Shown here piece by piece: positions 15,853-24,965 of a stretch of 64,000 bases of DNA (its first letter is position 1; every line of letters starts with the position of its first letter). Position numbers and translations under genes: made by a program. Source of the stretch: Oscillospiraceae bacterium (lineage in GTDB: Bacteria > Bacillota > Clostridia > Oscillospirales > Oscillospiraceae); the NCBI GenBank assembly GCA_017501355.1, contig JAFVXA010000039.1, forward strand, positions 1-64,000, read 5' to 3'. The notes beneath the pieces were generated by a model. It did not search any database. It had not been told where the DNA came from and worked only from the letters and a program-made list of their open reading frames with translations.

Positions 15853-15855
15853 TAT

Positions 15856-16348
15856 CTGCGAGTAAGTCTGTAAGCCGGGTTCTGTATTTGACAGTCATCT
15901 ATCTAGGCATACCGTTGCCGATATGCTCAAGCCACCTCCCGGGGACGGCCGGGCAAGCCTGTTGTCCCCCCACGGTGTTGCTCCGAATAGAGTTTACAGC
16001 ATCGCACTGTCTCCAGCCGATGGGTGAGCTCTTACCTCGCCTTTCCACCCTTACCCTCGTCGACGCAAACTCCACATCCTTCGCCCCGCCGCAAAGCGGC
16101 AGGTCTCATACGTTCCGTTGCGTCTCCTCTTCCTGTCGGAACCGCTTCGCTGGGTTCCTCTGGGAGTAAAGAAACGTAGTTACGCAAAGAATATGAAGTT
16201 TGCGCCGACCAAGGCGGTATATCTCTGTTGCACTTTTCCTGAAGTCGCCTTCGGCGGGCGTTACCCGTTATCCTTGCCCTGTGGAGCCCGGACTTTCCTC
16301 ATGGCGCACCTTTCGGTGTCGCCCCGCGACTGTCTGGCTTACTCGCAC
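15856..16348 (-). ncRNA. rnpB: RNase P RNA
   Basis: The minus strand holds all core RNase P RNA blocks in order: GAGGAAAGTCCGGGCTCC near the 5' end, AACAGAGATATACCGCC, GGTAAGGGTGGAAAGG, GTAAGAGCTCACC, and ACAGAACCCGGCTTA near the 3' end. The ends pair as helix P1 (TGCGAGTAAG at 16347-16338 with CTTACTCGCA at 15866-15857). The RNA is about 490 nt, longer than the usual 350-400, because the P12 arm (between ATACCGCC and GGTAAGGG) is about 150 nt. It cleaves the 5' leader of tRNA precursors. Confidence 0.95.
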
Positions 16349-22008: not shown

Positions 22009-22857
22009 TTAGAAGATAGCAACGACTGCGCCGTTGTAGCTGCTTTCGATGTAAGCCTTGACTGCATCGGTCTTGAGTGCGTTCACCAGAGCGGTGACCT
22101 TCTCGCTGTTCTCTTCGCCGGTGCGGCAAGCGATGATGTTGGCATAGGTCTGTGCTGCATCGCCGGAAGCGTCTTCGATTGCGAGAGCGTCAGCAACCTT
22201 CAGACCAGCCTGCAGAGCGTAGTTGCCGTTGATGACAGCTACGGTGCCCTCGTCGCTGTTAGCGAGCTGAGCGGGAACCATGTCAGCCTGCACTGCCTGA
22301 ATGTCATAACCGCCGTTGTCGACGATGTCGAGGGTGGTGACGCCAACTGCTGCGGAAGCATCAGCGGGGAGAGTGATCAGACCTTCCTGTGCGAGGAGCA
22401 GCAGTGCGCGGGTCTCGTTACTGTCGTCAGCGGGGATCAGAATGGTTGCGCCTGCGGCGATGTCAGCGACGGAGGAAACACCATTGCCATACATACCAAA
22501 GGGTTCATAGTGGATCAGACCTGCCACGGAGAGCTCAGTGCCGTTGGAAGCGTTGAAGCTCTCGAGGTAGGGGGTGTGCTGGAAGTAGTTGGCATCAAGT
22601 TCACCGTCGTTCAGAGCGGTGTTGGGCAGGACATAGTCATCATAAACCACGATCTTCAGGTCGTAGCCGTCAGCTGCGAGGGATTCCTTGACCTGCTCGA
22701 GAATCTCAGCGTGGGGAGTGGAGCTTGCACCAACGGTGATGGTGGTCAGTGCTGCAGCGTCATCGCCGCCGTCAGTAGCAGCGTCTTCGCCGCCGCCGCA
22801 AGCGACCAGAGACAGAACGAGGATCAGAGCGAGAATGAGAGAAGTAAGCTTTTTCAT
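22009..22857 (-). CDS. metQ: Methionine-binding lipoprotein of the MetNIQ ABC importer
   Basis: 282 residues. A lipoprotein signal peptide ends in LVAC (cleavage before the cysteine near residue 21), followed by a flexible acidic G/D linker and the NlpA fold: ITVGASSTPHAEIL, DYVLPNTALNDGELDANYFQHTPYL, and EPFGMY. These residues are typical of MetQ proteins. It captures methionine outside the membrane for MetNI. The start at 22857 has GGAG 7 nt upstream. It is the last gene of the operon and follows a mini-ORF and hairpin after metI. Confidence 0.93.
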   Translation of the reverse strand: MKKLTSLILALILVLSLVACGGGEDAATDGGDDAAALTTITVGASSTPHAEILEQVKESLAADGYDLKIVVYDDYVLPNTALNDGELDANYFQHTPYLESFNASNGTELSVAGLIHYEPFGMYGNGVSSVADIAAGATILIPADDSNETRALLLLAQEGLITLPADASAAVGVTTLDIVDNGGYDIQAVQADMVPAQLANSDEGTVAVINGNYALQAGLKVADALAIEDASGDAAQTYANIIACRTGEENSEKVTALVNALKTDAVKAYIESSYNGAVVAIF

Positions 22858-22922
22858 AATGTTTCTCCTTTTAAAAATATTTGTTGCTTTCATCAATCTT
22901 CTTTGGTTTCCAAGTTGTTTTT

Positions 22923-23013: not shown

Positions 23014-23691
23014 TCACTTGTTGATGCGCTTGTCGCTCTTGCGGACAATGCGCATACCGACCACCTGAATGACCTGCACGATGATCACCATCAGGAACAC
23101 ACAGAGCCAGGTGATGTCGGGCTTGCTGCGCTGGTGACCGTAGATGATGGCAATCTGACCGAGACCGGTGCCGCCGATGGTGCTTGCCATAGCGGAGTAG
23201 CCGAGAATGGTTACCATGGAGATCACAGCGCCGTTGAGGAGAGCGGGCTTTGCCTCGGGGATCAGTACCTTGCAGATCAGCTGGAAGGTGTTGGCACCCA
23301 TGGACTGTGCGGCTTCGATGACGCCGGCGTTGACTTCCTTGAGAGAGGACTCCACCATGCGGCCGATGTAAGGTGTTGCTGCAATGATCAGCATCACGAT
23401 GACTGCCTTGTTTCCGAGTGCGGTACCCACAATAAAGCGGGCTACGGGAAGCATCGACACCATGAGGATGATGAAGGGAATGCTTCGGAAGAAGTTTACC
23501 ACAAAGCCGAGCACGCGGTTCAGCCAGGGAACGGGAGCGATGCCACCCTGTTCGGTGATGTGGAGAACAACACCCAGAGGAAGACCAAATACGTAAGAGA
23601 CGGCGGTAGAGATCAGAGTCATGTAAATGGTTTCCCAGATGCCCAGCTGAATGAGACCTGCGTCCCAGAGCTTAAAAAACATATCAGACAT
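23014..23691 (-). CDS. metI: Methionine ABC importer permease
   Basis: 225 residues with five membrane helices and the ABC permease EAA loop (EAAQSMGANTFQLICKVLIPEA near residue 140, core EAAQSMGAN). The segment FRSIPFIILM and the C-terminal GGTGLGQIAI are those of MetI. It forms the channel with MetN. The start overlaps the GAGGCG region at the end of metN, four bases apart, so it is coupled. Confidence 0.94.
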   Translation of the reverse strand: MSDMFFKLWDAGLIQLGIWETIYMTLISTAVSYVFGLPLGVVLHITEQGGIAPVPWLNRVLGFVVNFFRSIPFIILMVSMLPVARFIVGTALGNKAVIVMLIIAATPYIGRMVESSLKEVNAGVIEAAQSMGANTFQLICKVLIPEAKPALLNGAVISMVTILGYSAMASTIGGTGLGQIAIIYGHQRSKPDITWLCVFLMVIIVQVIQVVGMRIVRKSDKRINK

Positions 23692-23694
23692 ATC

Positions 23695-24684
23695 TTACGC
23701 CTCCCCTCTGAAAGAAATTTCATTATTCTGCAGCCACAGCATGACCTTGTCAGCCTGACGCTCGTCGTTGGGCAGCTCCAGAATCATGTGACCGTAGATG
23801 CAGTCTTCCATTTCGCGGGTGTCGGCAAAGAGAATGCTGACGGGGGTCTGGCAATCCAGAACCATCTGTGCGATCACGGGTTTGTCGAAACGGTCGCCAT
23901 TGAAGGTGATGCGGACGCGTCTGCCGCCCTTGGTGTTGAGTGCGGCGCGGTCACGGGGGAGAATCAGATTTTTTGCGATCTCGGAGGTGGGGTTGGTAAA
24001 GACCTCGCTGACCTTACCCTCCTCGGCAATGTGGCTCTTGTCAATGACTGCCACGCGGTCACAGATCTGATCAATGACTCGCATCTCGTGGGTGATAACG
24101 ATGATCGTCACGCCCATGGTGGAGTTGATCTCCTTCAGCAGATCGAGGATCGCGCGGGTGGTGTTGGGGTCGAGGGCGCTGGTGGCTTCGTCGCAGAGCA
24201 GATACTTGGGGTTGGTGGCAAGGGCTCTTGCGATCGCCACACGCTGCTTCTGACCACCGGAGAGCTGAGAGGGATAGGAACCTGCGCGATCAGCGAGACC
24301 AACGATTTCCAGCAGCTCCATAGCTCTTGCTTCTGCCTTTGTCTTGTCTGCACCGGCGATCTCAAGAGGGAAGCAGACGTTCTTGAGGATGGTTCTCTGT
24401 TCCAGCAGGTTAAAGCCCTGGAAGATCATGCCGATGGACTGACGAACTTTCAGCAGTTCCTTCTTGGAAAGTTTAGTGAGATCCTTGCCATCCAGCAGCA
24501 CTTCGCCGGAGGTGGGACGCTCCAAAAGGTTCATGCAGCGGACAAGTGTACTCTTGCCTGCACCGGAAAGACCGATAATACCGAAAATTTCGCCGTCCTG
24601 GATGGTCAGATTGATATCATCCAGAGCTACGATCTCCTTATCGGCTGTCCGATAAGTCTTGTTGAGGTTCTTGATCTCAATCAT
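23695..24684 (-). CDS. metN: Methionine ABC importer ATPase
   Basis: 329 residues. Walker A GLSGAGKSTL (near 38-47), Q-loop GMIFQGFNLL, signature LSGGQKQRVAIARAL, Walker B YLLCDEATSALD and H-loop VITHEM are all intact. The C-terminal 90 residues form a NIL domain (RITFNGDRFDKPVIAQ), the methionine-sensing regulatory domain found in MetN. It powers methionine uptake. It is preceded by a doubled RBS segment and by a Met-codon leader with terminator. Confidence 0.96.
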   Translation of the reverse strand: MIEIKNLNKTYRTADKEIVALDDINLTIQDGEIFGIIGLSGAGKSTLVRCMNLLERPTSGEVLLDGKDLTKLSKKELLKVRQSIGMIFQGFNLLEQRTILKNVCFPLEIAGADKTKAEARAMELLEIVGLADRAGSYPSQLSGGQKQRVAIARALATNPKYLLCDEATSALDPNTTRAILDLLKEINSTMGVTIIVITHEMRVIDQICDRVAVIDKSHIAEEGKVSEVFTNPTSEIAKNLILPRDRAALNTKGGRRVRITFNGDRFDKPVIAQMVLDCQTPVSILFADTREMEDCIYGHMILELPNDERQADKVMLWLQNNEISFRGEA

Positions 24685-24723: not shown

Positions 24724-24761
24724 ATAACAAAAAAATCAGGAAACTCACCGTTTCCTGATCC
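24724..24761 (-). terminator. Attenuator terminator upstream of metN
   Basis: Minus-strand ATCAGGAAAC, loop GGTGA, GTTTCCTGAT, then seven T. It lies after the Met-rich leader ORF and before metN. The 5' arm (24754-24761, GGATCAGG) can also pair with TCTGATTT (24793-24786), which spans the leader stop codon, offering an anti-terminator. Confidence 0.88.
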
Positions 24762-24788
24762 AGTCGTTCCTAATTCTCTCTTGGAAAA

Positions 24789-24905
24789 TCAGATGGATTT
24801 GAAGGAAGGCGAGTCAACTTTTGGCGCACACATCATCATGCCCATGGTACCCATGCGCATCATCATACCCATCATCATGTTGTCGATTCTCACGATGTGA
24901 CGCAT
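24789..24905 (-). CDS. 38-residue methionine-rich leader peptide of metNIQ
   Basis: The frame starts at ATG 24905 with AAAGGAG 10 nt upstream and ends at TGA 24791-24789. Eleven of residues 10-25 are methionine, in runs MMM-G-MMM-R-M-GT-M-G-MMM, followed by CAPKVDS and a short tail. Together with the consensus promoter just upstream and the terminator just downstream, this is the classical layout of ribosome-mediated attenuation, where scarce Met-tRNA stalls the ribosome in the leader and lets transcription reach the transport genes. The peptide needs no function of its own. I see no S-box or T-box in the same leader. Confidence 0.85.
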   Translation of the reverse strand: MRHIVRIDNMMMGMMMRMGTMGMMMCAPKVDSPSFKSI

Positions 24906-24936
24906 ATGACCCGTCTCCTTTCCTGTATTTGAGCGC

Positions 24937-24965
24937 ATTATACGCCCGCAGTAATACTTTGTCAA
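24937..24965 (-). promoter_or_regulatory. Promoter of the met leader and metNIQ
   Basis: Minus-strand perfect TTGACA, 17 nt spacer, perfect TATAAT; the predicted start lies about 25 nt before the leader ATG. Confidence 0.92.

Follow-up and report, generated by a model that had tools for sequence, protein, structure and literature searches.

Methionine uptake in Firmicutes is normally described as being under S-box, T-box or protein control, and in the wider Firmicutes the S-box (SAM-I riboswitch) controls methionine uptake genes. Amino-acid leader peptides that replace T-boxes in this phylum are, in the literature found, those for histidine, and these have been reported to exchange with T-boxes (PMC2965389; PMC9413887). 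Before metNIQ itself, the metL leader of S. lividans TK24 was proposed in 2021 to be an attenuator (PMC8079986). Here we describe a Met-rich leader upstream of the metNIQ operon of a gut bacterium of the Oscillospiraceae (assembly GCA_017501355.1, contig JAFVXA010000039.1, positions 1 to 64,000; this whole stretch of 64,000 nt is referred to as the window). In our view it is, with a probability of roughly 0.83, a transcription attenuator of the ribosome-mediated type, which senses charged elongator Met-tRNA and regulates metNIQ.

On the minus strand, a promoter is followed by the Shine-Dalgarno (SD) region of the leader, the leader ORF, an intrinsic terminator and then metN-metI-metQ (Table 1). 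An initial annotation of this DNA had recognised the promoter, a 38-codon ORF with 11 Met codons and a terminator with a seven-T run before metNIQ, all of which were confirmed. The Met residues occupy positions 10-12, 14-16, 18, 21 and 23-25 of the leader, whose RNA folds 3.7 sd better than its own shuffles. For metN, metI and metQ the best NCBIfam match is in each case a methionine-transporter family, always below the curated cut-off; the annotated start of metQ is a TTG, with an ATG 39 nt inside. Directly 5′ of the metN start (24719-24685, minus strand) the metN ribosome-binding region is tandemly duplicated, GGTAAGGAGCTATAAC being found twice.

Table 1. Features of the leader region and of the metNIQ operon in the window.
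Feature	Coordinates	Strand	Remarks
Sigma-70-type promoter of the leader transcript, TTGACA-17-TATAAT	24937..24965	-	12/12 consensus match
Promoter elements	TTGACA 24965-24960; 17-nt spacer; TATAAT 24942-24937	-	
Leader Shine-Dalgarno region	24906..24923	-	AGGAG = 24919-24915
SD strand CGGGUCA	24913-24907	-	can pair with late leader codons 24816-24810; candidate anti-antiterminator strand
Leader ORF, 38 codons, MRHIVRIDNMMMGMMMRMGTMGMMMCAPKVDSPSFKSI	24789..24905	-	stop TGA 24791-24789; similar Met-rich ORF at the equivalent place in relatives
Met-codon run, presumed stall region	24831..24878	-	11 Met in residues 10-25
Segment X, late leader codons	24794..24816	-	alternative partner: SD region or terminator 5′ arm plus loop
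Hairpin across the leader stop codon, 24793-24784:24778-24769	24769..24793	-	predicted inside the antiterminated fold
Intrinsic terminator, 12 pairs, 5-nt loop GGUGA	24729..24761	-	stem 24761-24750 / 24744-24733; seven-T run 24735-24729
Terminator loop and upper stem	24756-24742	-	pair with X in the predicted antiterminated fold
metN, methionine ABC transporter ATPase with C-terminal NIL domain	23695..24684	-	TIGR02314 371 bits (curated cut-off 499.7); PF00005, PF09383
metI, permease	23014..23691	-	NF008049 MetI 209 bits (cut-off 212); PF00528
metQ, NlpA/MetQ-type lipoprotein	22009..22896	-	PF03180; TIGR00363 142 bits (cut-off 228.85)

Among the features by which a leader attenuator is recognised, an ORF at the head of the operon that is translatable as judged by its sequence, a run of cognate codons and an intrinsic terminator before the first gene are present, and the window leader gives no covariance-model match of the kind that defines T-box and SAM-I riboswitches. 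In fact, no Rfam riboswitch reaches the gathering threshold in the window, where the sole Rfam match is RNase P (15855-16345). As the initial annotation had supposed, neither an S-box nor a T-box (RF00230) is found there with Rfam covariance models; SAM-I is absent from the whole genome in the same kind of search, and nine T-box matches lie elsewhere in the genome. Of the six ATGATGNNNATGATG sites in the genome, leader included, the others have a translated context that is not leader-like.

Relatives came from a scan of MetN-bearing genomes, one for each species, and from additional searches within the order and the family of the window; the genomes, nearly all MAGs, gave 124 distinct metN upstream regions. 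These were scanned for SD-preceded ORFs of 10-60 codons, counting Met per 16 codons, with equally long stretches of the same loci as controls. At least 6 Met in 16 codons were found in 35/124 upstream regions versus 1/2162 control stretches, and at least 4 in 48/124 versus 17/2162, an enrichment by which chance occurrence of the Met leader is ruled out. Altogether, 58/124 regions were classed as leaders (a short, SD-preceded, Met-rich ORF), mostly by an automatic rule of at least 3 Met in 16 codons; in seven of them (L015, L034, L043, L050, L102, L105, L114) the ORF was set by hand, and the run of two of these, L102 and L114, holds only two Met. A terminator follows all 58 leaders, which are phylogenetically non-independent, and lies 14-65 nt after the leader stop codon; the search found 56 of these terminators, and those of L046 and L051, which have longer loops, were completed by hand. 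Just 5′ of the leader, a promoter matching at least 10/12 consensus positions is present in 95% of the 56 leaders tested, versus 2% of shuffles. Conservation of Met run and terminator in relatives, on which the initial annotation had staked its reading, is thereby borne out, and its remark that a translated Met leader is unusual in Firmicutes needs qualifying, such leaders being common before metN in one group of Clostridia. One further leader, L167, was found at greater distance within the phylum.

Variation among the leaders takes several forms. L050, L052, L068 and L072 make up a divergent subgroup with 2-4 Met codons, three of the four ending RAE/RAK-rich; in two of them, L050 and L072, strong pairing is possible between late leader sequence and the 5′ arm of the terminator. 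L105-L120, mostly of one genus, share a conserved MCMMCGFARFSA-like leader with a longer spacer to the terminator. In L031 a second promoter-like sequence (TTGACA...TATTATA) lies after the leader terminator, about 200-100 nt before metN, and would bypass the attenuator.

In 25/124 metN upstream regions a T-box is present instead of the leader, and the two never occur together (Fisher P=8e-9, without correction for relatedness). The T-boxes upstream of metN that were aligned to Rfam show GAA-N-AUG in the specifier loop, its position being judged from the alignment. At least 6 changes between leader and T-box are required on the MetN tree; L011, which has a T-box, falls within the clade of the window, and L081, which has a leader, is nested in a clade of T-boxes. 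T-boxes also lie upstream of metN farther out in the phylum, and at the more distant loci L174, L175, L177, L179, L180 and L182 S-box-like sequence was seen there by eye. Three RNA sensors, for SAM, tRNA and the translating ribosome, appear to exchange at one locus. In the clade of L017, L019, L021-L027, L029 and their relatives the gene order is another one: metN comes immediately after the end of an apparent metQ-like gene, and neither leader nor T-box is directly upstream of it. At L085:5227-5380, a Glycine-GGAnGA riboswitch match near metN scores 84.6 bits, short of the Rfam cut-off of 110.

That Met T-boxes substitute for the leader at an equivalent site points to tRNA charging as the signal rather than to peptide-specific arrest, in which the nascent Met-rich peptide, perhaps with a ligand, would stall the ribosome as TnaC or ErmCL do. 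Such an arrest finds some support in the window's group, where peptide ends are partly conserved (RAQ/CAQ/CAP after the Met run); however, base pairing is possible between the RAQ/CAP codons and the first leader codons, so that RNA structure accounts for the conservation of the former. Moreover, Met is 11-fold over the composition of the MetN protein in the 58 leaders and Met codons are the only feature common to all of them, whereas flanking residues, run length and order vary. We therefore regard peptide-specific arrest as very improbable.

Comparison of the leaders at the RNA level was made first of all with RNAalifold on a MAFFT alignment of 20 window-like leaders, in which the terminator helix covaries, 11 of the 13 predicted pairs having at least one two-sided change. 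The Met-run hairpin was recovered from the same alignment, and the SD:X helix was not found in it. Segment X has two mutually exclusive partners, the leader SD region and the terminator 5′ arm plus loop. With the SD it pairs as 24913-24907:24816-24810, continued by pairing of the first leader codons with the last Met codons (24903-24892:24836-24824), and with the terminator as 24815-24808:24749-24742, 24807-24803:24756-24752 and 24798-24794:24762-24758. Because the register of SD:X differs by one position from relative to relative, fixed-column pair counting gave way to a permutation test that needs no alignment, in which the duplex energy of own partners was compared with that of permuted ones in 25 window-like leaders. 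Own partners were better for X with SD (-16.2 vs -13.6 kcal/mol, sd 0.5, P=5e-5) as well as for X with terminator arm plus loop (-20.5 vs -17.2, sd 0.58, P=5e-5; -20.1 vs -16.9 after dereplication), and two null controls from the same genomes, RBS with 5′ arm (P=0.83) and X with the rest of the 3′ arm (P=0.93), gave no own-versus-permuted signal. Compensating SD:X pairs include GCGAACCG:CGGUUCGC (L009), CGGGUCA:UGACUCG (window), ACAAGGC:GCCUUGU (L140) and CAGCCUG:CAGGCUU (L099). In a simple duplex test of 5′ arm versus spacer, the overall result (KS P=2.5e-4) was stronger than that of the window alone (P=0.20), and X does not covary with the 5′ arm alone within the window's group (P=0.56 and 0.81 in two tests). 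Loop pairing was therefore examined, and in this group the X-terminator signal sits in the loop; a CGAG/GUGAG motif, frequent in terminator loops, mirrors the SD side.

These alternative covarying pairings of the terminator, together with an ORF that always lies directly before metN and terminator, argue against there being no attenuation at all, in which case the ORF would encode a small metal-binding peptide rich in Met and Cys, and the terminator behind it would be an ordinary, partial one. Although the richness in Met and Cys resembles that of copper-binding peptides, the peptide outside the Met run is unconserved and the four leader peptides scanned have no Pfam or NCBIfam match; we hold this to be the least probable of the explanations. 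The long SD-X helix, as a strong conserved structure, would also suit an unrecognised SAM or uncharged-tRNA riboswitch overlapping the leader, the ORF being incidental. Yet Met codons are kept across relatives while the neighbouring sequence changes, no Rfam match was found in the leader regions of relatives either, and with SAM-I lacking from the genome, such a riboswitch has in our judgment only a slight chance.

The window leader was folded at equilibrium with ribosome footprints blocked. The probability of the terminator was 0.91 with no ribosome, 0.92 with a ribosome at the stop codon and 0.00 with ribosomes at both the start codon and Met16; the last value stayed at or below 0.10 for footprints of 10 to 25 nt. 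Among dinucleotide shuffles of the spacer, 2/300 reached the 0.00 value and 0/300 showed the full difference from the ribosome-free state. The initial annotation had proposed that a single ribosome stalled in the run frees an antiterminator, which proved insufficient in equilibrium folding: with one ribosome in mid-run the terminator remained at 0.91-0.93 (0.91 at Met16), because SD strand 24913-24907 captures 24816-24810. One ribosome at codons 21-26 opened it partially (0.35-0.82). The antiterminator then proposed, an 8-bp pairing of 24754-24761 with 24786-24793, does exist with its three G-U pairs but is not the best pairing. As the sole alternative structure it was rejected, being outcompeted by the X pairing and by the hairpin that 24793-24784 forms with 24778-24769; in the predicted read-through fold, 24793-24784 closes this hairpin and the X pairings hold the terminator open. 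At equilibrium, the completed terminator wins over the antiterminator in most relatives whatever the ribosome state, and the switch there would therefore be kinetic. As long as the 3′ arm has not been made, engagement of the 5′ arm with upstream sequence stands at 0.69 versus 0.56 in shuffles (Wilcoxon P=3e-6, 58 leaders), and at 0.22 with a ribosome at the stop codon (58 leaders).

The promoter, the translatable Met-rich leader, the covarying terminator and the two exclusive covarying partners of X are established by sequence and comparison, and an attenuator built from them could work as follows. With no ribosome, the SD would capture X, the terminator would form and transcription would end before metN. 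With ample methionine, ribosomes would pass the Met codons without halting, reach the stop and cover X, and the terminator would form as well. Both steps are drawn from the pairings and from general leader-attenuator logic; in the classical trp, his, thr and phe leaders, too, the terminator is the default without translation and with full translation. When methionine is scarce, a ribosome would halt within the Met run, before reaching X, with a second ribosome behind it occupying the SD; the freed X would then pair with the upper stem and loop of the terminator, and RNA polymerase would read into metNIQ. We infer the queued second ribosome because one halted ribosome is insufficient in equilibrium folding, and it, or a kinetic effect, is an assumption of the attenuator model. 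Our suggestion that the leader's own ribosome-binding site serves as the switch strand, and that read-through needs a ribosome halted at Met (possibly also at Cys) plus a second, queued one, is a tentative one to which we give somewhat less than even odds. If this is true, the leader would detect ribosome queues, would be widespread among the uncultured Clostridia of the gut and could be exchanged for Met T-boxes at metN.

The possible part of cysteine comes from the composition of the leaders. Cys makes up 9.4% of leader residues and 13% of those inside the run, versus 1.6% in MetN (58 leaders); 54/58 leaders have at least one Cys and 46/58 at least two, and TGT is used besides TGC, with its highest use in the third of loci that is lower in G+C. 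Perhaps the leader reads sulfur amino acids generally, through Met and Cys codons, slow decoding of either raising uptake, and it is in line with this that in the metL peptide reported from S. lividans, too, Cys alternates with Met (PMC8079986). Nonetheless, the run of the window leader has one Cys versus 11 Met, metNIQ is by family a methionine importer, and the Cys codons may be structural, since UGC lies inside an AUG-UGC-AUG palindrome that is a conserved hairpin in the aligned group. General sensing of sulfur amino acids thus seems unlikely to us, and the Cys richness may reflect either such joint sensing or the constraint of the hairpin. Cys codons are interleaved with Met codons (MCM motifs) in the 58 leaders, e.g. 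in L043, L038 and L036.

Under the preferred reading, a Met-tRNA-reporting attenuator, metNIQ import would probably be turned on only under a shortage of methionine at the ribosome, and methionine limitation in leader-bearing gut Clostridia could be read from transcript ends. A translated Met leader in a large, mostly uncultured group of gut Clostridia would add a further class of methionine-uptake control. It would also make metN a natural series in which SAM, tRNA and translating-ribosome sensors replace one another before one gene, and the layout with the SD as switch gives a concrete queued-ribosome prediction.

As a mechanism, ribosome-mediated attenuation is already known in kind. We found no description of a Met leader in Firmicutes in open-access papers, and a Met-specific leader family of this phylum with the SD as switch strand appears to be undescribed in that literature. 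S-box (SAM-I) riboswitches differ from it in binding SAM and having no translated ORF. The Met T-box (RF00230) before metN shares with the leader the locus, the presumed signal of Met-tRNA charging and an antitermination output, but is a large RNA that senses tRNA directly. The His leaders of Firmicutes (hisS/hisZ, his operons) likewise replace T-boxes (PMC2965389, 2010; PMC9413887, 2022), yet for histidine, before other genes and in other lineages. With the enterobacterial trp, his, thr and phe attenuators, the metN leader has in common regulatory codons and alternative 1:2, 2:3 and 3:4 pairings (PMC9413887, general); it differs in sensing Met, in having as strand 1 its own Shine-Dalgarno region rather than codons near the stall, and in a strand 2 that lies inside the ORF and pairs with the terminator loop and both flanks. 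Closest in place is S. lividans metL, also a short, Met-containing leader ORF before the same operon. The peptides are short and dissimilar, and it is the linkage to metN alone that they share: metL is actinobacterial, sits on a leaderless transcript, has 2 internal Met in 29 residues and showed its authors no typical Rho-independent terminator (PMC8079986), whereas the Clostridia leaders are SD-led, carry up to 11 Met in 16 codons, are always followed by a terminator with covarying alternative pairings, and occur in dozens of genomes.
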